In this document: positions 14,068-58,024 of the stretch, piece by piece
Position numbering within the stretch: position 1 is the stretch's first letter
Layout: every line of letters starts with the position of its first letter
Assembly (NCBI RefSeq): GCF_009720365.1
Contig: NZ_WBZD01000016.1
Location: 1 to 64,000 of the forward strand
Length of the DNA: 64,000 nucleotides
DNA from: Catellatospora paridis
GTDB taxonomy: Bacteria > Actinomycetota > Actinomycetes > Mycobacteriales > Micromonosporaceae
Reading direction: 5' to 3'
Translations under genes and position numbers: made by a program
Notes under the pieces: generated by a model
Seen by the model: the letters and a program-made list of their open reading frames with translations, nothing else
Database searches by the model: none
Told to the model about the DNA's origin: nothing

Positions 14068-14709
14068 TCACTTGCCGGGCGACGGGTCCGGCACGGCGTC
14101 GAAGGTCTCCGGCACGGTCAGCCAGGTGGCCCGGTCGAACGGCCAGAACAGCACGAAGGCCCGCCCGACGAGCGCGTCCAGCGGGATCGTCGCCTGCATG
14201 ATGTCCTGGTTGTGGCCGTTGTAGTTGGCCAGCGAGTCCGCGGAGGCCTCGCGGTGGTCGCCCATCACCCACACCCGGCCCGCGGGCACCGTGATGTCGA
14301 ACGGCGCCGGAGCCGCCTTGTTGCCCGGGAAGACGTACGGCTCGTCCAGCGGCTGCCCGTTGACGGTGATCCGGCCCTGCGCGTCGCAGCAGACCACGTG
14401 GTCACCGGGCTGGCCGATGATCCGCTTGATGAAGTCCTCCTGCTCGGTGGAGCTGCGCCAGCTCTCCGGGGCCTCGAAGACGACGATCTCGCCGCGCGCC
14501 GGCTCGCCGAACTCGAAGGCGAGCTTGTTCACCAGCACCCGGTTGTCGATGAGCAGCGTCTGCTCCATCGAGCCGGTGGGGATCCAGAAGGTCTGCACCA
14601 CGAACTGCCGCACCAGCAGGGCGACGACGAGGGCCACCACCAGCAGGACCGGCAGTTCTTTCCAGAAGGATCCCCGGCCGGCACGCGGCTTCTTCTCGTC
14701 GTCGATCAT
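14068..14709 (-). CDS. lepB: Signal peptidase I, copy 1
   Basis: Removes signal peptides from exported proteins. One N-terminal membrane segment ('LPVLLVVALVVALLVRQFVV') is followed by the catalytic Ser47 in 'PTGSMEQTL' and Lys95 in 'FIKRIIGQPGD', then box E 'VWVMGDHREASADS'. 213 aa. It is the last of three tandem signal peptidase genes in the direction of transcription and is closest in sequence to copy 2. TAGGCT lies 7 nt before the ATG, matching the promoter of copy 2. Confidence 0.95.
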   Translation of the reverse strand: MIDDEKKPRAGRGSFWKELPVLLVVALVVALLVRQFVVQTFWIPTGSMEQTLLIDNRVLVNKLAFEFGEPARGEIVVFEAPESWRSSTEQEDFIKRIIGQPGDHVVCCDAQGRITVNGQPLDEPYVFPGNKAAPAPFDITVPAGRVWVMGDHREASADSLANYNGHNQDIMQATIPLDALVGRAFVLFWPFDRATWLTVPETFDAVPDPSPGK

Positions 14710-14722
14710 GCGCCGGAGCCTA
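14710..14722 (-). promoter_or_regulatory. Leaderless-type -10 box of lepB copy 1
   Basis: TAGGCT (complement of 14717-14722) is 7 nt before the ATG and there is no Shine-Dalgarno motif. The flanking CCGCG-TAGGCT-CCG is identical at copy 2 (15400-15411), consistent with duplication of gene plus promoter. Confidence 0.5.
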
Positions 14723-14763
14723 CGCGGCACGCGCGCGTCCGGTGACCCCACCTCTACCCTGTG

Positions 14764-15399
14764 TCAGCCTCCGGACGTCGGCTCCGGCACACCCGCGAAC
14801 GTGTCGGGGACCGTGAGCCAGGTGGTCCTGCTGAACGGCCAGAACAGCACGAAGGCCCGGCCGATCACGGAGTCCAGCGGAATCGTGGCCTCCTCGATGT
14901 TCTGGCCGTGGTTGTTGTAGTTGGCCAGCGAGTCGCCCGAGGCCTCGCGATGGTCGCCCATCACCCACAGCCGGCCCTCGGGGATGGTGACGTCGAAATC
15001 CTCGGGCGCCATCTTGTTGCCCGGGTAGACGTACGGCTCGTCGAGCGGGTGGCCGTTGACCTGGATGCGTCCCTGCGGGTCGCAGCACACGACGCGGTCG
15101 CCGGGCACGCCGATCACCCGCTTGATGTAATCCTCGTGCTCGGGGGTGTTACGCCAGCTTTCGGGTGACACGAACACGATGATCTCGCCACGCTCGGGCG
15201 TGCGGAAGTCGTAGACGAGCTTGTTGACGAGCACCCGGTCGTCGAGGTCCAGAGTGTGCTCCATCGACCCGGAGGGGATGAAGAACGTCTGCACCACGAA
15301 CTGCCGCACCAGGAATGCCACGATGATGGCCACACCCAGCAGGATCGGCAGCTCACGCCAGAACGACCCTTTGCTGCTTTTGGTCTGCTCGTCAATCAC
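14764..15399 (-). CDS. lepB: Signal peptidase I, copy 2
   Basis: 211 aa from a GTG. Catalytic Ser45 ('PSGSMEHTL') and Lys93 ('YIKRVIGVPGD') are intact. Its C-terminus shares long near-identical blocks with copy 1 ('GRAFVLFWPF', 'TWLTVP'), so the two look like a fairly recent duplication. TAGGCT stands 6 nt before the start codon, as for copy 1. Confidence 0.95.
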   Translation of the reverse strand: MIDEQTKSSKGSFWRELPILLGVAIIVAFLVRQFVVQTFFIPSGSMEHTLDLDDRVLVNKLVYDFRTPERGEIIVFVSPESWRNTPEHEDYIKRVIGVPGDRVVCCDPQGRIQVNGHPLDEPYVYPGNKMAPEDFDVTIPEGRLWVMGDHREASGDSLANYNNHGQNIEEATIPLDSVIGRAFVLFWPFSRTTWLTVPDTFAGVPEPTSGG

Positions 15400-15411
15400 G
15401 CACGGAGCCTA
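15400..15411 (-). promoter_or_regulatory. Leaderless-type -10 box of lepB copy 2
   Basis: TAGGCT (complement of 15406-15411) is 6 nt before the GTG, with the same flanks as at copy 1. Confidence 0.5.
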
Positions 15412-15434
15412 CGCGGCGAAACTGGAAACGACGA

Positions 15435-16319
15435 TCACCCGTGCTGTGTTGCCCTGTCGCGTGTAAGCCTGCGGCGCACCACGACCGCCCCGAGCAGCAG
15501 CGGCAGGGCCACCGACACCGACGCGCCGGAGTCCGGCGCGGCGGCGCCCGCAGCCGAATTCGTGTCCGGCACCTTGTCGAAGACCTCCTGGTGGGCCACC
15601 GATCCCCAGCGGCTCAACGGCAGCGCGACGACCATCGCCTTGCCGATGACGTCGTCGATCGGCACCTGTCCCTGACAGCGCGAATCCTGCGACACCAGGC
15701 GGTGGTCGCCCATCACGAACAGCATGCCGGGCTCGACGATGACCTCGTCGAAGTCACGCGAGTTGCAGGTCTTGTCGCCCGCCTCGCCGCGCGGGGAGTT
15801 GCGGATCACGTACGGCTCGTCGATGGGAACACCGTTGACGTAGATCCGACCCTCGACGTCGCAGCAGGACACCCGGTCGCCGGGCAGGCCGATGACGCGC
15901 TTGATGAAGTCCTTCTCGCCGGGCTGGCTGATGCCGACCAGGTCGCCCACGGTCCGGCCGAGCTTGGAGAAGAAGCCCGCGTCCGGGTCCGCGCCGTTCT
16001 CCGGGGCCCAGTTGTCGGGTCCCTTGAAGACGATGACCTCGCCGCGGGTGGGGTCGCGGAACTCGTAGACCACCTTGTTGACCAGCACCCGGTCGCCGAC
16101 CAGCAGGGTGTCCTCCATCGAGCCGGAGGGGATGTAGAACGCCTGCATCAGGAAGGTGCGGATGAGGACCGCCAGGCAGAACGCCACCACCAGCAGCAGC
16201 GGGAGCTCCTGCCACAGCGGCATGCCCTTGCGGCCGCGGCGGCGGCGGCGGCGCTTCTTCCACTGCTCGCCCGTGAACCCGTCGTCGTGGGATGCCCTGT
16301 TGGTGGGGAGGAGTGCCAC
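15435..16319 (-). CDS. lepB: Signal peptidase I, copy 3 with extra C-terminal membrane segment
   Basis: 294 aa. A strongly basic stretch (KKRRRRRRGRKG, residues 21-32) precedes the membrane segment. Ser67 ('PSGSMEDTL') and Lys140 ('FIKRVIGLPGD') are present. Unlike copies 1 and 2 it has a 40-residue insert between the catalytic residues and a C-terminal hydrophobic stretch ('VSVALPLLLGAVVV') followed by arginines, giving a second anchor. The GTG start lacks a strong Shine-Dalgarno site, so the N-terminal end is uncertain. Confidence 0.92.
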   Translation of the reverse strand: MALLPTNRASHDDGFTGEQWKKRRRRRRGRKGMPLWQELPLLLVVAFCLAVLIRTFLMQAFYIPSGSMEDTLLVGDRVLVNKVVYEFRDPTRGEVIVFKGPDNWAPENGADPDAGFFSKLGRTVGDLVGISQPGEKDFIKRVIGLPGDRVSCCDVEGRIYVNGVPIDEPYVIRNSPRGEAGDKTCNSRDFDEVIVEPGMLFVMGDHRLVSQDSRCQGQVPIDDVIGKAMVVALPLSRWGSVAHQEVFDKVPDTNSAAGAAAPDSGASVSVALPLLLGAVVVRRRLTRDRATQHG

Positions 16320-19156: not shown

Positions 19157-19825
19157 TCAGCTAGTCATTGTGCCAGACGGAACGGGCCGGATCGCACGCG
19201 GGCGGTCCCAACCCGCTGTGCGCCGCGGCACCGGCCAGGCGGGATCGGGACGGAAATCACACCAGGTCCCGTCGAACGGGAATCGCCCCGCCTCGGCGAT
19301 CTCGATCAGCCGCGCCCCGTCGGCCCGGATCCGGGCGGCGCCCGCCTCATCCCAGTAGTCCGCATGACCGGTCTTGGCGGCGAGCTCGCCCTCGTCCTTC
19401 CAGCGCCAGCTCAGATCCGGCTCCACCAGCACGTCGAGGGCGTTGTCGGCGAAGTCGACGCCGCACACGTCCCCGTCACGCCAGCGGACGAAAGGGTCCT
19501 CCAGGTTGCCGTACCAGCTGCCGAACCGCCCGCCCGGGAAGAACCACCACACCGACCACGGCTCGCCAGGCCGCTGCCACATCAGCAGATCGTTGCCGGC
19601 CCACACCAGCGGGCGCAGGATCGCGTCCGGCCCCAGCTCGTCGAGGGTGCCGTCATGGTGGCTGCGGCCGTCCCCGGTCATGATCCGCCAGTACGTCGTG
19701 CCCGCCGGCAGCCACAGCAGCAGGCCCCGCTCGCCGTCCTCGACCACCGTGGTCGCCTGGAGGAACGTGATCCGCCCACCCCGCCAGCACCGCCGCAGCA
19801 CGGTCTGCCCCGTCTCGAAGTACAT
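19157..19825 (-). CDS. DUF402 family protein, copy 1
   Basis: 222 aa. The end shares the block '[17 protein letters not shown]' and 'AGWDRPRA' with the neighbouring copy 2. The aromatic/acidic core ('[12 protein letters not shown]', '[24 protein letters not shown]') is that of DUF402, a fold shared with FomD and nucleoside-diphosphate hydrolases; the substrate here is unknown. TAGCGT lies 8 nt before the ATG and no Shine-Dalgarno site is present. An in-frame extension upstream of the ATG was rejected because similarity to copy 2 begins at this ATG. Confidence 0.85.
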
Positions 19826-19946
19826 GCGCCGCGACGCTACCGGCCTAGCGCAGCCCGCGCGGCCCCGCCTGGACGTCAGCCCCCGGTTCATGATCACCGT
19901 CTGGCGCCAAGACCGATGGCCTGACCTGACTTTTCGGCACGAGACA

Positions 19947-20000
19947 GCGATCACGGCCGCAACCCAGCGGTCACGGCCGCGGGACGGCGGTCACGGCCGA
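19947..20000 (+). repeat. 20-bp tandem repeat, about 2.7 units
   Basis: GCGATCACGGCCGC, GCGGTCACGGCCGC and GCGGTCACGGCCGA start at 19947, 19967 and 19987, an exact 20-bp period. The array lies between the two DUF402 genes and runs into the last codons of copy 2. Confidence 0.7.
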
Positions 20001-20641
20001 GCGCGGGGGCGGTCCCAGCCGGCCGGGACTTCGGCGGGCACCGTCCAGGCCGGGTCGGGCTGGAAGTCGCACCAGGTGCCGTCGAACGGGAAGGCGCCCG
20101 CCTCGATCAGCTTCACCACCCGCTCGCCCTCGGCCCGCACCGCCTCGCCGTCGGCCACCCAGTAGTGCTGCGGGTGCGCCAGGCGCTCGGCGAACTCCTC
20201 CTCGTCCTTCCAGCGCCAGGACAGGTCGGGCGCGACCACGATGTCGAGGTCCTGGTCCACGATGTCGACGCCGGCGACGGAACCGTCGTCCCAGCGCACC
20301 CCGGACTCCTCGAGGTTGACGTACCAGCGGGTGAACCGGCCGGCGTCGTCGCGGAAGAACCAGACCGAGTGGTCCTCGCCGCGCGGCAGCCACTTGAGCA
20401 GGCTCGGCCCCGACCAGGTGACGTCCCAGAGCTTCGTCTCCGTCTCGATCCACTCCGCGAACGGCATGGCCCGCAGCCCCCGCCGGTCGACCGCGAGCCG
20501 GTCCAGCATCGGCGCGCCGCGGGGCAGCCAGAGCAGCAGGCCCTGCTCGTCGTCGGCGGCGACCACCGCGGTCTTGAGCAGGCCGATCCGGTGGCCGTGG
20601 AAGTGGCGGTGCAGGATCACCCGTCCGGGTTCGAAACGCAT
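19991..20641 (-). CDS. DUF402 family protein, copy 2
   Basis: 216 aa, a paralogue of copy 1 in tandem ('[42 protein letters not shown]' split by small differences from copy 1, and the same [10 protein letters not shown] ending). The family is a predicted metal-dependent nucleotide phosphatase fold. The ATG is preceded by TAGGGT at 6 nt, so the transcript may be leaderless. Confidence 0.85.
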   Translation of the reverse strand: MRFEPGRVILHRHFHGHRIGLLKTAVVAADDEQGLLLWLPRGAPMLDRLAVDRRGLRAMPFAEWIETETKLWDVTWSGPSLLKWLPRGEDHSVWFFRDDAGRFTRWYVNLEESGVRWDDGSVAGVDIVDQDLDIVVAPDLSWRWKDEEEFAERLAHPQHYWVADGEAVRAEGERVVKLIEAGAFPFDGTWCDFQPDPAWTVPAEVPAGWDRPRARP

Positions 20642-21245: not shown

Positions 21246-22655
21246 TCAGTACGAGCGGGCCAGGATCGCGGTCAGGTCGGGCTCGTCCTGCGAGGCCGGG
21301 ACCGAGCCGTCCGCCCGGAACAGGCAGCGCACCGTGATGGCGCGCTCGTTGGCCAGCGCCTCGCCGTCGACGCCGACCGCCGACCACGGCACCCGGGCCC
21401 AGCCGGTGCCGGCCGCTTCGAGGGCCTCGTCCAGGGTGGACACCTCGACGGTGTTCGCCTCCCGGCGGGCCAGCGCCTCGTCGTACAGCGCCTTCTGGTC
21501 GGCCTCCAGCGCGGCGGTGACCGCGCCGACCGCCTCACCGAGCTGCATCGGGGTCTTCGAGCCATCGATGCGGCGCACCAGCACGACGCGGCCCTCGGCC
21601 AGGTCGCGCGGGCCGACCTCGATCCGGATCGGGTAGCCCTTCAGCTCCGCGTCGACGGCGCGGCGGCCGAACGGGGTGTCGACCCGGTCGTCCAGCTTGA
21701 CCCGGACACCGGCCGCGGCCAGGTCCTCGACCAGCGTGCGGGCGGCGGAGGTGATCGAGCCGTCGGTCTCCTTGACCACGGTGACGATCGCCTGGATCGG
21801 CGCGAGCGCCGGCGGGACGCGCATGCCGTTGTCGTCGCCGTGGCACATGATCAGGCCGCCGAGCATGCGGGTCGAGGTGCCCCAGGACGTGGTCCAGGCG
21901 TGCTCGCGGGTGCCCGCCTGCGACGAGTACGCCACGTCGAACGCCTTGGCGAAGTTCTGGCCGAGCTCGTGCGAGGTGCCCATCTGCAGCGCCTTGCCGT
22001 CGCCCATCATCGCTTCCAGCGTGTACGTGCTGGTGGCGCCCGCGAAGCGCTCGCGGTTGGTCTTGCGGCCCAGCACCACGGGAATGGCGAGCAGCTCACG
22101 CATGTGGCGCTCGTACACCTCGTGGTGGATCTTCAGGGTGTATGCCTTGGCGTCGGCCTCGGTGGCGTGGGCAGTGTGCCCCTCCTGCCACAGGAACTCC
22201 GACGTGCGCAGGAAGATCCGCGGGCGCATCTCCCAGCGGACCACGTTGGCCCACTGGTTGAGCAGCAGCGGCAGGTCACGGTAGGAGTCGACCCACTTGG
22301 CCATGAACTCGCCGATGACGGTCTCGCTGGTGGGACGCACCACGACCGGCTCGGCCAGCTGCTTGCCGCCGCCGTGGGTGACCACCGCGAGCTCGGGCGA
22401 GAAGCCCTCGACGTGCTCGGCCTCGCGCTTGAGGTAGCTCTCCGGGATGAACAGCGGGAAGTACGCGTTCTCCGCGCCCGCCGCCTTGATCCGGGAGTCC
22501 ATGTCGGCCTGCATCCGCTCCCAGATGGCGTAGGCCGTCGGTCGGATGACCATGGTGCCCCGGACCGGGCCGTTGTCGGCCAGCTGAGCCTTGGAGATCA
22601 GGTCCTGATACCAGCGGGGAAAGTCTTCCGCCCGGGGAGTGAGCACACGCGCCAT
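21246..22655 (-). CDS. proS: Prolyl-tRNA synthetase (archaeal/eukaryote-like type)
   Basis: Class II synthetase of 469 aa. The three class II motifs are visible around 'GTMVIRPTAYAIWERM', 'NVVRWEMRPRIFLRTSEFLWQEGHTAHA' and 'GLIMCHGDDNGMRVPP'. There is no editing insertion between motifs 2 and 3, and the architecture is the short eukaryote/archaeal-like form found in some bacteria. The ATG is clear. A 75-bp palindromic element lies upstream. Confidence 0.95.
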   Translation of the reverse strand: MARVLTPRAEDFPRWYQDLISKAQLADNGPVRGTMVIRPTAYAIWERMQADMDSRIKAAGAENAYFPLFIPESYLKREAEHVEGFSPELAVVTHGGGKQLAEPVVVRPTSETVIGEFMAKWVDSYRDLPLLLNQWANVVRWEMRPRIFLRTSEFLWQEGHTAHATEADAKAYTLKIHHEVYERHMRELLAIPVVLGRKTNRERFAGATSTYTLEAMMGDGKALQMGTSHELGQNFAKAFDVAYSSQAGTREHAWTTSWGTSTRMLGGLIMCHGDDNGMRVPPALAPIQAIVTVVKETDGSITSAARTLVEDLAAAGVRVKLDDRVDTPFGRRAVDAELKGYPIRIEVGPRDLAEGRVVLVRRIDGSKTPMQLGEAVGAVTAALEADQKALYDEALARREANTVEVSTLDEALEAAGTGWARVPWSAVGVDGEALANERAITVRCLFRADGSVPASQDEPDLTAILARSY

Positions 22656-22740
22656 AGCGGGTCATCCTACTGACCCACGCCGCGCCCGCTCCCCCCAGCC
22701 CGCCCGTGTCCCGCCCCACCCCGCCGCCCGAAGTGCTCAA

Positions 22741-22815
22741 GATCGCCCGACTTGCCTGGCACATGGGCGAAAGCGCGCCCAAGATACGCACACGTGCCCG
22801 GCAAGTCCGGCGATC
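22741..22815. repeat. 75-bp dispersed palindrome, copy A1
   Basis: 22-nt arms (22741-22762, 22794-22815) pair with two mismatches; the outer ends are GATCG and CGATC. It is 9 bp past the amidohydrolase stop and upstream of proS. About 85% identical by eye to copy A2 and exactly the same length as A2 and A3. Confidence 0.85.
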
Positions 22816-22824
22816 ATGAACCGG

Positions 22825-23907
22825 TCAGTGGATGACGCGGCCGCGCAGGACGATGCGTTGTGGGGCGAGCAGGGTGCGCAGGTCGCGGCGGGGGTCTTCG
22901 TCGTAGACGACCAGGTCGGCCAGGCCGCCCTCGGTCAGGCCGGGGAAGCCGAGCCAGTCGCGGGCGCGCCAGGAACCGGCCGCGAGCACGTCGGACGCGG
23001 ACATTCCGGCCGCGTGCAGGCGCAGCATCTCCTGTGCGGCCAGGCCGTGTGCGATGCCGCCGCCGGCGTCGGAGCCGACGTAGATCGGCACCCCGGCCTC
23101 GTGCGCCGCGGACACCACCGCCGGGAACCGGTCGCGCAGCGCGAGCATGTGCTTGGCGTACCCGGGGAACCTCGCCTCGGCCCGTTCGGCGATGTGCCCG
23201 AACGTCTCGATGTTGATCATTGTCGGGACCAGGGCGGTGCCCCGGCGCGCCATCTCGTCGAGCAGGTCGGTCGACAGCCCGGTGCCGTGCTCGACGCAGT
23301 CGATGCCCGCGCGCACCAGCGTCGCGACGCTCGACTCCTCGAAGCAGTGCGCGGTGATCCGCGCCCCGGCCGCGTGCGCCGCGCCCACGGCCGCGGTGAG
23401 CGTGGCCTCGTCCCAGGCGGGCGCGAGGTCGCCGCGGTCGCGGTCGATCCAGTCGCCGACCAGCTTCACCCAGCCCGTGCCCGCCGCCGCCTGCCGGGTC
23501 ACCTCCGCCACCACCTGGTCCGCGGGCACCTCCACCCCGATCTCGGGCAGGTACCGCCGCGGCGGCGCGACATGCCGGCCCGCGCGGGCCAGTCGCGGCA
23601 CGTCGCGGTCGTCGTCCAGCTCGGCGTACGGATACGGCGAGCCCGCATCCCGGATCGCCAGCACCCCGGCGTCCCGGTCGACGAAGGCCAGCTCCCGCGC
23701 CTGCGCCAGGCTCGTCACCGGGGCCCCGCCGGGCGCGATGCCGATGTGGCAGTGCGCGTCCACCAGTCCCGGCAGCACGTAGCCGCCGGTGGAGACCGTC
23801 TGCGCCCCGGACACCGGGGTCAGCGACACCCGGTCGCCGACCAGCCACAGATCACGGACTTCGTCGTCGGGGAGCACCACGCCCCGCACATGCAGCGCCG
23901 TCGCCAT
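22825..23907 (-). CDS. Amidohydrolase-superfamily enzyme
   Basis: 360-aa TIM-barrel hydrolase. Metal ligands are visible: His52 and His54 ('DAHCHIG'), a likely carboxylated Lys148 ('GWVKLVGDW'), His187 ('ITAHCFEE'), His207 ('CVEHGTG') and Asp280 ('YVGSDAGG'). This resembles the imidazolonepropionase/prolidase-like group; the substrate is unknown. The ATG at 23907 begins the small beta-domain. A LexA-type operator lies 112 bp upstream, so DNA-damage control is possible but unproven. No partner gene is adjacent. Confidence 0.87.
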   Translation of the reverse strand: MATALHVRGVVLPDDEVRDLWLVGDRVSLTPVSGAQTVSTGGYVLPGLVDAHCHIGIAPGGAPVTSLAQARELAFVDRDAGVLAIRDAGSPYPYAELDDDRDVPRLARAGRHVAPPRRYLPEIGVEVPADQVVAEVTRQAAAGTGWVKLVGDWIDRDRGDLAPAWDEATLTAAVGAAHAAGARITAHCFEESSVATLVRAGIDCVEHGTGLSTDLLDEMARRGTALVPTMINIETFGHIAERAEARFPGYAKHMLALRDRFPAVVSAAHEAGVPIYVGSDAGGGIAHGLAAQEMLRLHAAGMSASDVLAAGSWRARDWLGFPGLTEGGLADLVVYDEDPRRDLRTLLAPQRIVLRGRVIH

Positions 23908-24222: not shown

Positions 24223-25788
24223 CTATTTGTCCTTGTCCTTGTCGTCGCCCTTCATCAGCTTGCCGAAGTCGAGCTTCGGAGCCTTGAACGGGCTGCCGCC
24301 GCCCATGCCCATCTGCTGCTCCAGCGCGGCCGGGTCCATGCCCGGGGGCAGTTGCGGCATGCCGCCGCCCATGCCGGGCAGACCGGCCGGGAAACCGCCG
24401 CGCGGACCGCCGCCGCTCTTGGTGCCCTTGCGCTTGTTCTTGGGCGACTTGGTCGCCTTGCGGCGGCCGCCGCCGGGCAGGCCCATCATGCCGCCCATCT
24501 GCTTCATCATCTTCTGCGCCTGCTCGAAGCGGTTGAGCAGCTGGTTCACGTCGGTGACGGTGACTCCGGAGCCGCGGGCGATGCGGGCCCGGCGCGAGCC
24601 GTTGAGGATCTTCGGCGTGGTGCGCTCGCCCGGGGTCATCGAGCGGATGATCGCGGTGACCCTGTCGAAGTGGCTGTCGTCCAGCTCGGCCAGCTGGTCC
24701 TTCATCTGGCCCATGCCCGGCATCATGCCGAGCAGGTTCGCGATGGGACCCATCCGGCGTACGGCGATGAGCTGGTCCAGGAAGTCCTCCAGCGTGAACT
24801 GCTCGCCCCCGAGCAGCTTCGCCGTCATCTTCTCCTTCTGCTCCTCGTCGAAGGCCTGCTCGGCCTGCTCGATGAGGGTCAGCACGTCGCCCATGCCGAG
24901 GATGCGGCTGGCCATCCGGTCGGGATGGAAGACGTCGAAGTCCTCCAGCTTCTCGCCGGTGGACGCGAACAGGATCGGCTGCCCGGTGACCTCGCGCACG
25001 GACAGCGCGGCGCCACCGCGGGCGTCGCCGTCGAGCTTGGAGAGCACGACACCGGTGATGCCGACGCCGTCGCGGAACGCCTCCGCGGTGGCCACGGCGT
25101 CCTGGCCGACCATCGCGTCGATGACGAAGATGATCTCGTCGGGGTTGACCGCGTCGCGGATCGCGGCGGCCTGCGCCATCATCTCGGTGTCGATGCCGAG
25201 GCGGCCCGCGGTGTCGACGATCACGATGTCGCGCATGTGGCGGCGCGCGTGCTCGATCGAGTCCTTGGCGACCTGGACCGGGTCGCCGGTGCCGTTGCCG
25301 GGCTCCGGCGCGTACACCTCGACGCCCGCGCGCTGGCCGAGCACCTGCAGCTGGTTGACCGCGTTGGGGCGCTGGAGGTCGCAGGCGACCAGCAGCGGCT
25401 GGTTGCCCTGGGCCTTGAGCCAGCGGGCGAGCTTGCCCGCGAGCGTGGTCTTACCGGATCCCTGCAGACCGGCCAGCATGATCACGGTGGGCGGCTGCTT
25501 GGCGAACTGGAGCCGCCGAGCCTCCCCGCCGAGGACCGCGACCAGCTCCTCATGCACGATCTTGATGATCTGCTGGGCCGGGTTGAGCGCCTGCGAGACC
25601 TGCGCGCCGCGCGCCCGCTCCTTGAGCCGGAAGATGAAGGCCTTCACCACCGGCAGGGCGACATCCGCCTCCAGCAGCGCCAGCCGGATCTCCCGGGCGG
25701 TGGCGTCCACGTCGGCGTCGGTGAGCCGGCCCTTGCTCCGCAGCTTGGAGAAGATGCCGGAGAGCCGGTCGCTCAGGGTGTCAAACAC
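24223..25788 (-). CDS. ffh: Signal recognition particle protein Ffh
   Basis: SRP54 GTPase that binds signal sequences and 4.5S RNA. NG domain with P-loop 'GLQGSGKTT' (about residue 105), 'DTAGR' and 'LSKLDGDARGG'. The M domain has the RNA-binding 'RRARIARGSGVTVTDVNQLL'. The methionine/glycine-rich tail ends in Lys/Asp. 521 aa from a GTG. Its partner FtsY is 6 kb away. Confidence 0.97.
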   Translation of the reverse strand: MFDTLSDRLSGIFSKLRSKGRLTDADVDATAREIRLALLEADVALPVVKAFIFRLKERARGAQVSQALNPAQQIIKIVHEELVAVLGGEARRLQFAKQPPTVIMLAGLQGSGKTTLAGKLARWLKAQGNQPLLVACDLQRPNAVNQLQVLGQRAGVEVYAPEPGNGTGDPVQVAKDSIEHARRHMRDIVIVDTAGRLGIDTEMMAQAAAIRDAVNPDEIIFVIDAMVGQDAVATAEAFRDGVGITGVVLSKLDGDARGGAALSVREVTGQPILFASTGEKLEDFDVFHPDRMASRILGMGDVLTLIEQAEQAFDEEQKEKMTAKLLGGEQFTLEDFLDQLIAVRRMGPIANLLGMMPGMGQMKDQLAELDDSHFDRVTAIIRSMTPGERTTPKILNGSRRARIARGSGVTVTDVNQLLNRFEQAQKMMKQMGGMMGLPGGGRRKATKSPKNKRKGTKSGGGPRGGFPAGLPGMGGGMPQLPPGMDPAALEQQMGMGGGSPFKAPKLDFGKLMKGDDKDKDK

Positions 25789-26099
25789 AGCGCAACATCC
25801 CCAATTGGTCGAGTTCGTCTGAATGAGCGGCTACAGGCAGCCCTGGTAAGGGTAGCCGCTGCCCTCACCGCCCGATCCCACTGCCGCCCGGTCACGCATA
25901 CCCACCCCGCCGACCCCCCGAACCGCCCACCCGCGCGACCCTGACCCCCGCCGCCGCGCCGACGGCCGACCGGCCGCGCAAGGTCGCCCGACTTGCCTGG
26001 CACATGGGCGAAAGCGGGTTCAAGATACGCACAGGTACCAGGCAAGTCGGATGATCAAGGACCACCCGCGCGACGGCCGAGTAGGGCACCGCGGCGGGA
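25789..26099. other. 311-bp gap between glnD and ffh
   Basis: No gene seen. It holds the palindrome copy A2 (25982-26056) at the glnD side. On the ffh side an inverted repeat at 25827-25859 (GCGGCTAC/GTAGCCGC) contains TACCCT on the minus strand, a possible -10 element for ffh. Confidence 0.6.
25982..26056. repeat. 75-bp dispersed palindrome, copy A2
   Basis: 22-nt arms at 25982-26003 and 26035-26056 pair with a few mismatches. The core 'CTTGCCTGGCACATGGGCGA' is identical to copy A1. It sits 43 bp past the glnD stop. Confidence 0.85.
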
Positions 26100-28373
26100 T
26101 CAGGCGGCGGCGAGGACGGCGGCTTCGACGGTGTCGCGGTCGACGTCGCCGACGAGGTAGAAGGCGTCGACGACGTCGGCGCCGAGGGTGGAGACACGGG
26201 CGGTGCGCACGTCGACGCCGAGCTCCGCCAGCGCCGAGGTGACCCGGTAGAGCAGGCCGGGCGAGTCCGTGGCGCGCAGTTCCAGCAGCGTCGCGCCGGT
26301 CGCCTCACCCCAGATGACCCGCGGCTCGGCGCCGGTCACCGGCTTGCGGCCACCCGCGCTGCCCAGGCGGCGGGGCAGCGGCAGCTGGTCCAGCCCGACC
26401 CGGCGCAGGTCCGCGGCCAGCAGCTCCCGGTCCGGAGGGGCGCCGTAGCGGTTGTTCACGGCGCATTCGATGATCGCGCGCTCACCGATCGTGGACGTGC
26501 CCGCGGCGACGATCTCCAGTTTGTGCGTGGCCAGGCAGCCCGCGACCGCGGCGAGCAGGCCGACGCGGTCGTGCGCGGCCAGCGCCACCCAGTCGTCGGC
26601 GACCTGCACCACCGGCAGCGGCCCGGCCAGCAGCGCCGGGTCGGGCAGGGTCGGCTCGGGCAGCTGCCCGCCGCCGAGCACCTTGCGCACCCGCGCGCAC
26701 AGGTCGTCGATGAGCTTGGACTTCCAGGCCGACCAGGCGGCCGGGCCGGTGGCCTGGGCGTCGGCACGGGCGAGCATCTGCAGCAGTTCGAGCGTGCCGG
26801 TGTCCCCGACGAGCTTGGCGACGTGGTTGATCGTCGCCGGGTCGTCGAGGTCGCGGCGGGTCGCGGTGTCGGGCAGCACCAGGTGGTATCGCACCAGCGT
26901 GGCGATGGTGTCCACGTCGGCCGGGGGCAGGCCGATCGCGGTGGCGATCTCGCGGGCCAGCTCCGCGCCGACCTCGCTGTGGTCACCGGGCAGGCCCTTG
27001 CCCACGTCGTGCAGCAGCGCGCCGAGCACCAGGAGGTCGGGCCGGGCCACCTCGCGCGACCAGGTGGCGGCGTTCGCGGCGGCCTGCACCAGGTGCCGGT
27101 CGAGGGTGAAGCGGTGCACGGGGTGGTGCTGCGGGGTGCCGCGCAGCCGGGTCCACTGCGGCAGCCAGGCCGAGGTGAGCCCGAAGCGGTCGCAGGCCTC
27201 CCAGGCCGCGACCAGGCCGGTGCCCGCGCCGAGCAGGGTCAGCAGGGCGGTGCGGGCCGAGGCGGGCCACGGGGTCGGCAGCGGCGGGCAGAACCGGGCC
27301 AGCCACTCCAGGGTGGCGCGCGCGATGGGCATCTGGTGCTGGGCGGCGGCGGCGGCCACCCGCAGCGACAGCGACGGGTCGGGGTGCGGGCCGACCGCTG
27401 CCCGGGCCAGCACGATCTCGCCGTCGGCGGCGACCACGTCGCGGGCGATCGGGCGGCGTACGGTCACCGCTTCGCGGGTGCGCGGGTCACCGTGGCGGGA
27501 CCCGGCCGCGGTCCAGCGCTGCACCGAGCGCCAGGCGTCGGTCAGCGACCACGAGACGGCCCGGGCGTCGAGCCCGATCCGGCGCAGCAGCATGTCGCCG
27601 TCGGCCAGCCCGAGCAGTTCGGCCACCTGCAGGCGCTCCTGGGCCCGCAGCCGGTCGTTGCGCCGGCCGATGCTGACGTGCAGCGCGTCGCGTACGTCGA
27701 GCAGCCGGGTCGCGGCGGCGCGCACCTGGGGCGGCAGTGCGTCGGCCACCCCGGCGACACCGATGCCGCGCAGCACGCCGACGTCGCGCAGGCCGCCCGC
27801 GGCCTCCTTCACGTCGCCTTCGAGCAGGTAGGCCAGCTCGCCGTGGGCCGCGTGGCGCTCCTCGACCAGCTCCCGCAGGCGCAGCAGCTGGCGGCGCGCG
27901 GTGCGCCGCCACTGGTCCACCGCGGCCCGGCCCAGCTGGGCGGACAGCGCCGGGTCACCGGCGATGTGGCGGGCGTCGAGCAGCCCGAGGGCCACCTTGA
28001 CGTCGTCGTGCGCCGCGTCGAGCGACTCGGCGACGGTGCGGGTGGAGTGGTCCAGGCCCATCCGGGCGTCCCAGATCGGATACCACAGTGACGCGGCCAG
28101 CTCGTCGACCCGCGGCACCCCGGCGTGCACCAGGATCAGGTCCAGGTCGCCGTGCGGCGTGCACTCGCGGCGGCCCAAGCCGCCGACGGCCACCAGGGCG
28201 ACGCCGGGGGTGTCCGGCAGCAGCCGGCGCAGCCAGGCGTCGAGCGCGTCGGCCCGGGCGAGCCGGGCGTCCGCGCCGATGGAGGACTGTTCCCGCAGCG
28301 CGAGCCGCGCATAGTCGGGCCCGGGGCCCGCCGCGCTGTCCGATGCGGAAGCTACGACGTTCCCCGGGCCCAT
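26100..28373 (-). CDS. glnD: Bifunctional [protein-PII] uridylyltransferase / uridylyl-removing enzyme
   Basis: Nitrogen sensor that modifies PII in response to glutamine. 757 aa: a nucleotidyltransferase domain with 'GGLGRRECTPHGDLDL' (Asp76, Asp78), a GlnE-like helical part, an HD hydrolase domain ('LGALLHDVGKGLPGDHSEVG') and two C-terminal ACT domains ('DRVGLLAAVAGCLATHKLEI' and 'DSPGLLYRVTSALAELGVDV'). In actinobacteria such as Streptomyces and Corynebacterium the enzyme acts on GlnK by adenylylation instead; the sequence does not tell which nucleotide is used here. It is third in the amtB-glnK-glnD operon. Confidence 0.95.
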   Translation of the reverse strand: MGPGNVVASASDSAAGPGPDYARLALREQSSIGADARLARADALDAWLRRLLPDTPGVALVAVGGLGRRECTPHGDLDLILVHAGVPRVDELAASLWYPIWDARMGLDHSTRTVAESLDAAHDDVKVALGLLDARHIAGDPALSAQLGRAAVDQWRRTARRQLLRLRELVEERHAAHGELAYLLEGDVKEAAGGLRDVGVLRGIGVAGVADALPPQVRAAATRLLDVRDALHVSIGRRNDRLRAQERLQVAELLGLADGDMLLRRIGLDARAVSWSLTDAWRSVQRWTAAGSRHGDPRTREAVTVRRPIARDVVAADGEIVLARAAVGPHPDPSLSLRVAAAAAQHQMPIARATLEWLARFCPPLPTPWPASARTALLTLLGAGTGLVAAWEACDRFGLTSAWLPQWTRLRGTPQHHPVHRFTLDRHLVQAAANAATWSREVARPDLLVLGALLHDVGKGLPGDHSEVGAELAREIATAIGLPPADVDTIATLVRYHLVLPDTATRRDLDDPATINHVAKLVGDTGTLELLQMLARADAQATGPAAWSAWKSKLIDDLCARVRKVLGGGQLPEPTLPDPALLAGPLPVVQVADDWVALAAHDRVGLLAAVAGCLATHKLEIVAAGTSTIGERAIIECAVNNRYGAPPDRELLAADLRRVGLDQLPLPRRLGSAGGRKPVTGAEPRVIWGEATGATLLELRATDSPGLLYRVTSALAELGVDVRTARVSTLGADVVDAFYLVGDVDRDTVEAAVLAAA

Positions 28374-53850: not shown

Positions 53851-55623
53851 GTGAAACGTCCCATCCTCCGTCGCCTGCTTGCCGTGACCGGCAGCGTGAC
53901 GCTCGGCCTCATGGGCGCGGTGGCCCTGGCCAGTCCCGCACAGGCGCACCACACCGACCCCAGCGGTTTCGCCCAGTGCACCCCGACCGAGTGGGTCATC
54001 ACCTGGACGATCAAGAACTGGGACACGGACCTGACGGCCACGGTCGACCTGGTCGCCAAGCCCGACACTCCCATCAAGAGCATCGTCGACGGCAGCAACC
54101 TCGACGGCGCCACCCTGCCGGGCAAGAGCAAGAAGAACGGCAAGTGGGTTGTGGGCGAGCTGGTCGGCGAGCAGCGCGTGCCGCTGTCGACCGACAAGGT
54201 CGAGCTCGTCGTGAAGGGCACCTGGTCCAACGGCGTCAAGCACACTGCGCAGCCGGAGATCGTGAAGCTCGACCGCTCCAAGTGCGGCGAGCGAAAGGTC
54301 GACATCCTCGGTAAGGCGAAGTGCGACTACGACACCGGCAACTGGAACGTGACCTGGACCGTCGCCAACAAGCACTACACGGACCAGGCGACCGCCAACA
54401 TCATCACGCAGGACGGCCCCGACTCGCAGAAGTCTGCGATCAAGAAGGCCAACAACCAGTGGGTGACCCTGGCAAACGAGAACGTCATCGTGGGCCTGAA
54501 GGACGGCGACAAGATCAACGGCGGTCAGGCGAAGACCGCCACCCAGGTCGTCGAAGGCAGCGCGAAGGCTGCGCGGCTGAAGGTCCAGCTGGAGTGGAAG
54601 TCCAACTTCCTGAAGAACGAGTCCGACTCGCAGGTTCGCGTGGTCGAGTTCGACGGCTCCTGCGTCAAGAACACGCCTAAGCCGACTGCCGCGTTCGCCT
54701 CGGACTGCTCCGGCGAGGTCACGGTCACCCTGAAGAACATCGCGGGCGCCACCAAGAAGGCCGTGTTCGTGGTCAAGGGCGCCGGCGACTGGGCGAGCGA
54801 GCCGATCGAGGTCGAGGCCGACGGTACGGCCACGGTGACCGTCCCGGCGAGCGCCTCCTCGTCGATCACGGTGCTGGAGAGCGGCACCCCGATCGAGAAG
54901 GGCACCTACTCCTGGACTGACAAGACCGAGTGCCACCCGGTCGACATCACCAGCGAGCAGACCTGCGACAAGGTCATCGTCACCATCAACAACCCGGCGG
55001 GCGGCGCCGCGGCGACCGTCGTGCTGACCCCGGTCAAGGGCTCCGCCCCCGCCGAGACCGAGCAGGCTGTCAAGGCGCTGAGCAGCGACGCCATCACCAA
55101 GACCGTGGCTCCGGGCACCAAGGAGACCGTCGAGTTCGAGGTCGGCGAGACCGGTCTGGTGGTCCACACGACCGTCAACGGCGAGCAGCGCGGTTCGATC
55201 ACCTGGAAGAAGCCGGCCGGCTGCGAGCCGATCGGCGGCGAGGTCGCCGACACCTGTGACGGCCTGGTCTTCGACCTGAAGAACCCGCAGGACGGCAGCA
55301 AGACCGACCTGGTGCTCACCCCGAGCAAGGGCGAGGCCGTCAGCTTCACCCTCAACCCGGGCGAGACCAAGAAGGTCGAGTTCAAGGCCGACAAGGAGCT
55401 GACCGTCAAGGTCACGCTCAACGGCAAGGTAGTCGACGAGATCGTCTGGGAGAAGCCGAAGGACTGCGACAAGCCGTCCCCCTCCCCGTCGGCCCCGCCG
55501 ACCCTGCCGAAGACCGGTACCAACGTCACGATCTTCGTGATCTCCGGTCTGCTGCTGGTCGCCGTCGGCTTCGCGGTGTTCATGCTGGCGCGACGTCGCC
55601 GGCTGAACATGACCGAGGTCTGA
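53851..55623 (+). CDS. LPXTG-anchored repetitive cell-wall protein
   Basis: 590 aa: a signal peptide (cut likely after AQA, residue about 32), five related beta-rich domains of 80-110 residues, each with a pair of cysteines, then a Pro/Ser spacer and a complete sorting signal (LPKTG at 552-556, membrane stretch 'IFVISGLLLVAVGFAVFMLA', RRRR). It is rich in Lys and Thr, unlike its Arg/Ala-rich neighbours. The GTG has GGAG 6 nt upstream. The domains ('VTLKNIAGATKKAVFVVKG', 'VTINNPAGGAAATVVLTP', 'FDLKNPQDGSKTDLVLTP') suggest internal duplication. No sortase gene is in the window. Confidence 0.9.
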   Translation: MKRPILRRLLAVTGSVTLGLMGAVALASPAQAHHTDPSGFAQCTPTEWVITWTIKNWDTDLTATVDLVAKPDTPIKSIVDGSNLDGATLPGKSKKNGKWVVGELVGEQRVPLSTDKVELVVKGTWSNGVKHTAQPEIVKLDRSKCGERKVDILGKAKCDYDTGNWNVTWTVANKHYTDQATANIITQDGPDSQKSAIKKANNQWVTLANENVIVGLKDGDKINGGQAKTATQVVEGSAKAARLKVQLEWKSNFLKNESDSQVRVVEFDGSCVKNTPKPTAAFASDCSGEVTVTLKNIAGATKKAVFVVKGAGDWASEPIEVEADGTATVTVPASASSSITVLESGTPIEKGTYSWTDKTECHPVDITSEQTCDKVIVTINNPAGGAAATVVLTPVKGSAPAETEQAVKALSSDAITKTVAPGTKETVEFEVGETGLVVHTTVNGEQRGSITWKKPAGCEPIGGEVADTCDGLVFDLKNPQDGSKTDLVLTPSKGEAVSFTLNPGETKKVEFKADKELTVKVTLNGKVVDEIVWEKPKDCDKPSPSPSAPPTLPKTGTNVTIFVISGLLLVAVGFAVFMLARRRRLNMTEV

Positions 55624-55639
55624 CAGCCATAGGCACATG

Positions 55640-55675
55640 AGAACGGGGCGGGTCCTGACGGACCCGCCCCGTTCT
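55640..55675 (+). terminator. Terminator after the LPXTG gene
   Basis: AGAACGGGGCGGGTCC and its exact complement form a 16-bp stem with a TGAC loop, 16 bp past the stop. Confidence 0.75.
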
Positions 55676-55688
55676 GCGTACCTGCCCT

Positions 55689-55763
55689 GATCGTCCGACT
55701 TGCCAGGCAGACGGTCCAATGGCTGCCCATGATTCGCACAAGTGCCCGGCAAGTCGGACGATC
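55689..55763. repeat. 75-bp dispersed palindrome, copy A3
   Basis: 22-nt arms at 55689-55710 and 55742-55763 with few mismatches; ends GATCG...CGATC. It is the same length as A1 and A2, with arms conserved and the middle more diverged. It lies between the convergent ends of the LPXTG gene and recG. Confidence 0.8.
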
Positions 55764-55828
55764 AAGGAGCGCCCGGCGGCCTCGGGCGTTCGAGGAGCGC
55801 CGGGTGCGGCCCTCGCCGGGGTCGGGCG

Positions 55829-58024
55829 TCAGCCCTTCTGGAGAAATTCGGCGCGGTCGGTGTCGACGAGGCGGGCGATCTGGTCGGCCAGCAGCGGGTG
55901 TGCGGACAGGTCCGGGTCGTCGGCGAGCAGGGCCTCCGCCTCGGCTCGGGCCTCGCCGATCAGGTCGCGGTCGCGCAGCAGGGACAGCAGGCGCAGGTGC
56001 GAGCGCCGACCGGACTGGGCCGCGCCCAGCACGTCGCCCTCGCGGCGCTGCTCCAGGTCGAGTTCGGCGAGCCGGAAGCCGTCGAGCGTGGAGGCGACCG
56101 CGTCCAGCCGCTCGCGGGCGGGAGTGCCCGCCACGGCCTCGGTGACCAGCAGGCACAGGCCCGGCGCGCTGCCCCGGCCGACCCGGCCGCGCAGCTGGTG
56201 CAACTGCGAGACGCCGAACCGGTCGGCGTCGAGGATGACCATCGCGGTGGCGTTGGGCACGTCCACCCCGACCTCGATCACGGTCGTGGCGACCAGCACG
56301 TCGAGCTGCCCGGCCGAGAACGCGCGCATGATCGCGTCCTTCTCGTCGGCGGGCAGCCTGCCGTGCAGCACCCCGATCCGCAGGCCGCGCAACGGCCCCT
56401 CGGCCAGCAGCGGGGCGACGTCCAGCACGGCCACCGGCGGGCGGCGCTCGTCCTCGACGGCGTCGTCGGGCGGCGGGGTGTCGTCGTCGGTGGCGTTGTC
56501 ACCGATGCGCGGGCAGACGACGTACGCCTGATGGCCCTGCTGCACCTCCTCGACCACGCGCCGCCAGGCCCGCTCCAGGAACGCCGGCTTCTCCGCCACC
56601 GGCACCACGTGCGAGGCGATCGGCGACCGCCCGCCGGGCAGCTGCGACAGCGTGGACACCTCCAGGTCGCCGTAGACGGTCATGGCGACCGTGCGCGGGA
56701 TCGGGGTCGCGGTCATCACCAGCACGTGCGGCGGCTGTTCGGCCTTGGCCCGCAGCGCGTCGCGCTGCTCCACCCCGAAGCGGTGCTGCTCGTCGACCAC
56801 GACCAGGCCGAGGTCGGCGAAGTCGACGCCCTCGTAGAGCAGCGCATGGGTGCCGATGACCAGTCCGGCACTGCCGTCGGCGACCTTGGCCAGCACCTTG
56901 CGCCGCGCGGCCGCCCCCTGCGAGCCGGTGACCAGGGCGACCTGGGTGCCGTTCGGGTCGCCGTCGAGCTCGTCGGCGCGCCCGGCCGGGCCGAGCATCC
57001 GGGTGATGCCCCGGTGGTGCTGGGTCGCCAGCACCTCGGTCGGGGCCAGCAGCGCGGCCTGCCCGCCCGCGTCCACCACCTGGAGCATGGCCCGCAGCGC
57101 GACCAGCGTCTTGCCCGCGCCGACCTCGCCCTGCAGCAGCCGGTGCATGGGGTGCGCCACGGCCAGGTCGGCGGCGATCTCCTCGCCGACCGCGAGCTGC
57201 CCGTCGGTGAGCGTGAACGGCAGCGTGCCGTCGAATCCGGCCAGCAGGCCGCCGTCGCGGCGCGGCCGGGGCCTGGCGGGCCACGCCGCCGCCTCCCGCT
57301 TGCGCCGCACCAGGGTCAGCTGCACCGCGAACGCCTCGTCCCAGGCGAGCCGGCGCTTGGCGATGTACAGCATCTCCTTCGACGACGGGCGGTGGATCTC
57401 GCGCAGCGCCGTCTCCAGGTCGATCAGCTTGCGCTCGGCGCGGATCCGGGACGGGGTGGCGTCCGGCGGCATGGTCACCGTGTCCAGCACCACCCGCACG
57501 CAGCGGGCGATCACCCAGGTCGGCACGGCCGCGGCGGCCGGATACACCGGGATCATCGCCCCGGCGAACTCCTCCACCTCGGCGGCCACCTCGCCGTCGG
57601 CGGCCCCCTGGTCGAGCAGCACGTACTCGGGGCTGTTGAGCTGGCGGCGGCCGCGGAAGTCGCTGACCTTGCCCGCGAACAGGCCCCACCGCCCCGGGCG
57701 CAGGTCGCGCTCGCGCCAGGCCTGCTGGAAGTACGTCAGCACCAGCTGGCCGCCCGCGCCGTCACCGACGACGACCTCCAGCATGCTGCCGCGCCGCTGC
57801 CGCATCGGCCGGGTCGTCGTGCGCAGCACCTGGGCCAACACGGTGACCTCTTCGCCGATCTCCAGCGTGCGCATGTCGGTGTGCTCGCCCCGCTGGTCGT
57901 AGCGCCGGGGCACGTAGAACAGCAGGTCACCGGCGGTGTACAGGTCGAGGTGCACGGCCAGCGCCTTGGCGGTCTTCTCCCCGACCAGCTTGGACAGCGG
58001 GGTGTCGACGTCCGCGGAGGTCAT
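55829..58024 (-). CDS. recG: ATP-dependent DNA helicase RecG
   Basis: 731 aa. A wedge/OB domain is followed by the superfamily 2 helicase: Walker A 'GEVGAGKTLVA', 'DEQHRFGVEQR', 'TATPIPRTVAMT', 'ATTVIEVGVDVPNA' and 'QLRGRVGRG'. It remodels stalled forks and Holliday junctions. About 25 residues rich in Asp/Pro (after 'PRIGDN') form an acidic insert between motifs. The ATG is clear. Confidence 0.96.
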   Translation of the reverse strand: MTSADVDTPLSKLVGEKTAKALAVHLDLYTAGDLLFYVPRRYDQRGEHTDMRTLEIGEEVTVLAQVLRTTTRPMRQRRGSMLEVVVGDGAGGQLVLTYFQQAWRERDLRPGRWGLFAGKVSDFRGRRQLNSPEYVLLDQGAADGEVAAEVEEFAGAMIPVYPAAAAVPTWVIARCVRVVLDTVTMPPDATPSRIRAERKLIDLETALREIHRPSSKEMLYIAKRRLAWDEAFAVQLTLVRRKREAAAWPARPRPRRDGGLLAGFDGTLPFTLTDGQLAVGEEIAADLAVAHPMHRLLQGEVGAGKTLVALRAMLQVVDAGGQAALLAPTEVLATQHHRGITRMLGPAGRADELDGDPNGTQVALVTGSQGAAARRKVLAKVADGSAGLVIGTHALLYEGVDFADLGLVVVDEQHRFGVEQRDALRAKAEQPPHVLVMTATPIPRTVAMTVYGDLEVSTLSQLPGGRSPIASHVVPVAEKPAFLERAWRRVVEEVQQGHQAYVVCPRIGDNATDDDTPPPDDAVEDERRPPVAVLDVAPLLAEGPLRGLRIGVLHGRLPADEKDAIMRAFSAGQLDVLVATTVIEVGVDVPNATAMVILDADRFGVSQLHQLRGRVGRGSAPGLCLLVTEAVAGTPARERLDAVASTLDGFRLAELDLEQRREGDVLGAAQSGRRSHLRLLSLLRDRDLIGEARAEAEALLADDPDLSAHPLLADQIARLVDTDRAEFLQKG

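Follow-up and report, generated by a model that had tools for sequence, protein, structure and literature searches.

We found that Catellatospora (Micromonosporaceae) carries a genus-wide, high-copy palindrome that lies mostly behind genes, and of which the three copies in the 64-kb window (the whole stretch of DNA analysed) are a small part. It is a REP-like gene-end palindrome outside the tagged REP families. Its most likely role, judged from sequence, would be that of a two-way terminator or 3′-end stabiliser, and it is a real possibility that a protein recognises the sequence. A search of openly licensed papers found no description of the repeat.

The three copies were noted in a preliminary description of the window, which gave each a length of exactly 75 bp and a place 9–140 bp past a stop codon; both points were borne out. 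All are given on the plus strand. Copy A1 (22741–22815; conserved unit with its C-W-W flanks 22738–22818) sits in tandem context: the stop of a minus-strand amidohydrolase gene, at 22825, precedes it by 9 bp, and the copy is itself upstream of a minus-strand class II tRNA synthetase-like gene (21246–22655), as predicted by gene calling and Pfam. Copy A2 (25982–26056, 75 bp; unit 25979–26059) lies 43 bp past the stop of a minus-strand glnD-like gene (26100–28373) and upstream of ffh/SRP54 (24223–25788). The more diverged copy A3 (55689–55763; unit 55686–55766), with the core CATGATTCGC, is placed between convergent genes for an LPXTG-anchor protein (53884–55623) and a recG-like protein (55829–58024), 65 bp from either stop. 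An ordinary terminator-like hairpin (55640–55675, plus strand) stands between A3 and the first of these stops; most gene ends with a copy have no other strong hairpin, and this one is an exception. The arm core CCGACTTGCCNGGCA, allowing up to two mismatches, matches the window eight times, six of these being the six arms, whereas 100 shuffles averaged 1.5 matches and never exceeded 6. RNA folds of the three copies on both strands range from −38.7 to −50.2 kcal/mol, 6.0 to 8.3 standard deviations below shuffles. Rfam gave no match in the window at gathering score. The window had also been described as free of transposases, which holds for the 13 of its 59 predicted genes that were scanned with Pfam. 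It also contains three adjoining minus-strand signal peptidase genes (Peptidase_S26; 14068–16319), which are tandem paralogues, and two DUF402 paralogues side by side (19157–20620).

The preliminary description would have failed had these three been the only copies in the genome and randomly placed; searching the whole genome and its relatives gave about 90 in 8.97 Mb and a repeat present throughout the genus. A covariance model built from 31 copies returned at least 150 rows in the source genome, both strands counted, and of the places fetched a position matrix retained 90, the scores showing a gap between 79 and 54; the copy number is a lower bound because 150 candidates were scored. For the one-contig genome G008, an exact pattern matched 76 times on the forward and 71 times on the reverse strand, a number of elements being counted on both, with none on either strand for the controls. 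A strand bias along the chromosome was considered and rejected on these counts, and on the 50 forward matches that we counted by hand among 100 matches listed. One exact pattern was compared with viral contigs, and none matched.

All 11 Catellatospora genomes have model matches, at least 58 to 60 each, as against two of 70 other genomes of the family and order. In a 300-genome sample of the family (E up to 1e-4, stricter filters) the widest search made, matches came from 12 genomes, namely the 11 of the genus and, among the 289 others, G028 alone. A scan of named genomes found at least 98 stretches, and all 80 among the matches listed were from Catellatospora. The three places in G028 and G040 that match the model are a 73-bp relative that resembles the element in its arms and differs in the middle, a short AAGATCCCG palindrome, and a palindrome of 55 bp whose core is similar. 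Locus L278 of G040, from another genus, has one palindrome that shows GATC ends, ACTTG and a core like that of the repeat; it matches the model over 55 bp, each arm being about 10 bp shorter. The core motif was found elsewhere in the family in one of 36 genomes, twice, once inside a similarly built palindrome with shorter arms and once in no palindrome.

The placement of copies is not random. Counts of location, flanks and covariation used 84 of the 90 places (score above 78), leaving out six lower-scoring places, a 74-bp copy (C7:348648) and a 68-bp copy (C3:249941); genes were called by a purpose-written script. One of the 84 had no two-sided context, and one is inside a called gene. The 83 copies with two-sided context divide into 47 tandem, 27 convergent and 9 divergent, against 92, 16 and 65 among 173 de-duplicated element-free intergenic regions of at least 90 bp, convergent settings being commoner (Fisher p ~9e-6) and divergent ones rarer (p ~7e-6). 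The 103 copies from other species comprise 58 tandem, 37 convergent and 8 divergent ones. Tandem copies are usually closer to the upstream stop (41 of 47 in the source genome, 49 of 58 in other species), and they take either orientation to transcription (25 vs 22, and 31 vs 27). The median distance after the stop is 28 bp, compared with 20 bp for strong hairpins at other gene ends.

This is the position of a terminator, and the element tends to stand there in a hairpin's place, as indicated by the depletion of second hairpins at copy-bearing ends. A further hairpin with a stem of at least 11 is present at 10 of the 93 gene ends that have a copy and at 70 of the 187 that have none (p 1e-6); the rate at copy-free ends is 22% when they are cut to the same net length (p 0.008) and 10% when the same place is masked. 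With a stem of at least 9 the counts are 24 of 93 and 103 of 187, the length-matched and masked controls giving 35% and 23%, and the length-matched depletion is not significant (p 0.07). A masked-control rate equal to the observed 10% fits replacement and is not independent proof of function. As in an intrinsic terminator, a stable hairpin follows soon after the stop codon (83 locations, folds of three copies), but a U-tract after it was not found: in RNA sense, no run of more than two Ts occurs within 12 nt after the element in 46 of the 47 tandem copies.

We regard it as moderately probable that the repeat serves as a REP-like, orientation-independent gene-end hairpin, acting as a terminator or 3′-end stabiliser. 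Transcribed from either side, it would fold, a short way past the stop codon, into a highly stable hairpin, which may stop RNA polymerase without a U-tract, or may protect and define the mRNA 3′ end; in so doing it would take the place of an ordinary terminator hairpin. Copies would have spread by some transposition-like process with a helper. We infer that transcripts may end or be stabilised at the element. Copy number, constraint in place, gene-end bias and occupation of the terminator position support the earlier suggestion of an extragenic palindrome that is under selection and may also serve as a terminator. Against a hairpin role stand the nine of 83 copies between divergent genes, and the position of A3 behind an ordinary terminator-like hairpin.

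The anatomy of the repeat bears on what is being conserved. The conserved unit is about 81 bp, longer than the 75 bp first recognised, and runs from C-W-W-GATC to GATC-W-W-G, with the consensus C-W-W-GATC-RYYS-GACTTGCC-N-GGCA ... core CAAGATACGC ... TGCC-N-GGCAAGTC ... GATC-W-W-G. Two arms enclose the conserved core, and each contains a small dyad, TGCC-N-GGCA, whose centre (positions 17 and 59) varies freely. In 84 copies the left flank has C at −3 in 85%, and A/T at −2 and −1 in 87% and 86%; the right flank has A/T at +1 and +2 in 90% and 86%, and G at +3 in 86%. The A+T content of the flanks is 21%. Pairing across the element between the A/T flank positions is no higher than in shuffled sequence (84 copies); these positions are conserved yet unpaired, and an RNA hairpin would not need them.

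Copies at orthologous places are held under constraint. We compared 47 orthologous pairs, drawn from 35 clusters and with flanks about 92% identical; they have 0 to 16 differences among the 75 positions, whereas copies in the genome differ from one another at 16.8 on average. The 18 conserved columns change at 3.3% and the 25 variable columns at 22.8%, leaving out columns 40–51, 55–58 and 60–66 because the loci were fetched by exact pattern; over all columns the rates are 2.4% and 22.8%, and for the 37 pairs with at most nine differences, fetching columns included, 2.1% and 19.1%. Independent replacement could account for some of the more divergent pairs. That conserved columns are kept while variable ones change is not expected of a freely decaying insertion.

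Pairing is a lesser part of this constraint. The preliminary description held that pairing is conserved, with changes made on both sides of the arms; the claim survives as a small significant excess in the larger sets, with no sign of it in 31 copies, whose 86.2% pairing equals that of shuffles, and most of the constraint is on sequence. In the 84 copies of the source genome we counted 2063 paired cells, against 2019.5 ± 9.8 when whole 3′ arms are permuted (z 4.4; 0 of 1000 permutations), and in 206 copies from the genus, which are not independent, 5104 against 5007 ± 14. Partner pairs 6/70, 17/59, 12/64 and 11/65 rank from 23rd to 68th of 2775 column pairs in the source-genome set, where the strongest couplings are between neighbours, not partners. 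Partner columns changed together in 32 cells of the orthologous pairs against 20.1 expected, which is weak since controls slid by one column also exceed expectation (15 vs 11.5 and 15 vs 11.0). In the transcribed sense G.U is preferred over A.C (168 vs 130, p 0.03) with both sets combined, and neither set alone is significant (p 0.25 and 0.08). Pairing covariation as the main signal was rejected, being absent in 31 copies and weak in 84 and 206; pairing seems to be selected weakly on top of strong sequence constraint.

Such sequence-specific constraint in excess of pairing is what would be expected if the repeat were instead a duplex-DNA site for a genus-specific protein, serving as a boundary, a roadblock terminator or a nucleoid-organising site. 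The two inverted arm dyads and the core would together bind the protein, making orientation irrelevant; the free variation at the dyad centres, the conservation of the unpaired W-W flanks, and the retention of an asymmetric core despite random orientation to transcription all accord with this. The covariation that does exist and the small G.U preference in RNA sense argue for the hairpin, as do the scarcity of second hairpins and the occurrence of other palindromes at the same gene ends, and we consider a protein site to be rather unlikely, although it is the strongest of the alternatives.

The presence of individual copies differs between species. A1 is present in seven of the 11 genomes of the genus and absent from four, whose intergenic regions of 23 or 71 bp hold no comparable palindrome. 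Of nine resolved genomes, three have A3, a fourth has it truncated after GATCGTCCGA, two carry a different palindrome in its stead and the last three lack it. Behind glnD, the syntenic blocks of nine genomes have the 75-bp element in two, A2 being common only to the source genome and G003. Dispersal to unrelated places, this variation by species (A1 in 7 of 11, A3 in 3 of 9 resolved, A2 in 2 of 9), the palindromic shape with its terminal inverted repeats, as in MITEs, and the parallel palindrome families of the genus would suit a non-autonomous mobile element of MITE or REP kind that has no host function and lies behind genes since insertion is tolerated there.

The constraint on orthologous copies opposes such an element, and so do the insertion sites. 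Correia elements are small, mobile, MITE-like sequences with a TA duplication. The 84 copies of the Catellatospora repeat have no excess of identical flanks for lengths of 2–11 bp (of the ten lengths tested, 5 bp reached a z of 2.1) and no exact flank repeat of 3–6 bp. In 50 orthologous comparisons, a set biased towards presence since its loci were fetched by pattern, 47 have the element and three have no full copy (one with a cut-down copy, two with other sequence containing hairpins), and none is a clean empty site. In L097 (~2547–2700), the orthologue of copy C13:37555, the element is interrupted after GATCACTCGA by about 115 bp holding another palindrome, and the A3 stub in G003 breaks off at that position of the element too.

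A search for Y1/RAYT-type transposase genes found none that is obligate for the repeat. PF01797 (Y1/RAYT-type) has a match in six genomes of the genus and none in five, while all 11 carry the element, and about 1.5 kb on each side of nine PF01797 loci held two arm matches, both with three mismatches. A RAYT origin is not supported, as five element-bearing genomes have no PF01797 match and the PF01797 loci are not flanked by the repeat. Two Y1 transposase fragments (G000:C15:42896 and G000:C20:79939), near ORFs that by eye are TnpB-like, are probably IS200/IS605 remnants. Altogether a mobile element lacking host function appears improbable; mobility, also part of the earlier proposal, can be inferred from dispersal and species-specific presence, with neither target-site duplication nor a clean empty site to go with it.

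The gene ends that the repeat occupies may hold palindromes of other kinds. The seven other glnD regions have other long palindromes, six of them belonging to three other clusters, whereas the A1 and A3 positions do not all show such replacement. In G005 a tandem array of a unit near GTGCAGAGCAAGGCC lies behind glnD, beside a palindrome of another family. Seven further palindrome clusters recur within a single genome, each at no fewer than two places, and looser settings unite two of the seven; their members are 44 to 79 bp, some with GATCGC near the ends. Examples of dispersed clusters in loci of the genus are those with AAGAAGGGCACCTTCT, TGCAGTTTCGGGGAAA, GCAACTCTTAAAGACTTGCG, ACGTTGGCCTAT, CGATCTTGCGCGAA and CAAGATCGCCGTTT. 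The families share positions in 20 family-by-position events over 12 positions, with P ranging between 0.0024, if 50 positions are possible, and 0.16, if 25 are; these values are illustrative because the events were compiled by hand, merging two clusters and adding a palindrome by eye, and this sharing may be chance. We propose, quite tentatively, that these long palindromes, part of them GATC-ended, might form a Micromonosporaceae super-family of exchangeable gene-end cassettes, the same positions being filled differently by lineage and kept by a sequence-reading protein or RNA-processing factor, so that transcripts would have a second, U-tract-free and sequence-standardised mode of ending.

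That the repeat is an uptake sequence for transformation, doubling as a terminator in inverted pairs, is very improbable: repeated, conserved inverted pairs do occur at gene ends in Neisseria and Pasteurellaceae, but in 1,000 or more copies (PMC1852404), against about 100 here, and the Catellatospora repeat has a conserved core as well and only three places with exact arm matches outside known elements among 100 matches listed (by eye), one resembling a half copy behind a hairpin and two looking like chance.

Several known systems resemble the repeat in part. REPs of the GTAG and CGTC super-families, as outlined in portions of PMC3733652, are 20–40 bp with a tag at one end and are located mainly between tandem and convergent genes, near upstream 3′ ends; the GTAG kind is linked there, and in excerpts of PMC2817692, to RAYT transposases. 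The Catellatospora repeat shares the high copy number, the tandem or convergent location and the proximity to 3′ ends, which upholds the label REP-like as to number and place. Membership is another matter: the repeat is 75–81 bp, has GATC at both ends and no GTAG/CGTC tag at its end, and no Y1/RAYT-type gene obligate for it was found, five of the 11 genomes having no PF01797 match. ERIC/RU and similar MITE-like sequences are likewise short intergenic repeats of comparable length (partial texts of PMC2229807 and PMC2759123), from which ours differs in having no target-site duplication and in the constraint on orthologous copies in place. The uptake-sequence terminators of Neisseria and Pasteurellaceae are likewise sequence-standardised inverted pairs in terminator place (PMC1852404, in part); our repeat has far fewer copies and is long, with a conserved core and no T-tail. 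Stem-loops concentrated at 3′ gene ends, some in repeat families, are treated in PMC1590033, where the families in the available text are from Yersiniae, Bordetellae and Enterococci and do not include this repeat. The available text of PMC3733652 has no word starting with "actino" or "GATC", and that of PMC12306157 lists three Actinomycetota and names neither Micromonosporaceae nor Catellatospora.

To our knowledge, it is not settled how transcripts are ended in high-GC actinobacteria where hairpins have no U-tract. The repeat offers about 90 standardised, countable gene-end copies in one genome, and a gene behind which one species has the element and another species a replacement provides a natural experiment for comparing transcript ends. 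It also allows constraint on sequence to be separated from constraint on pairing within one repeat, which bears on REP-like elements generally.
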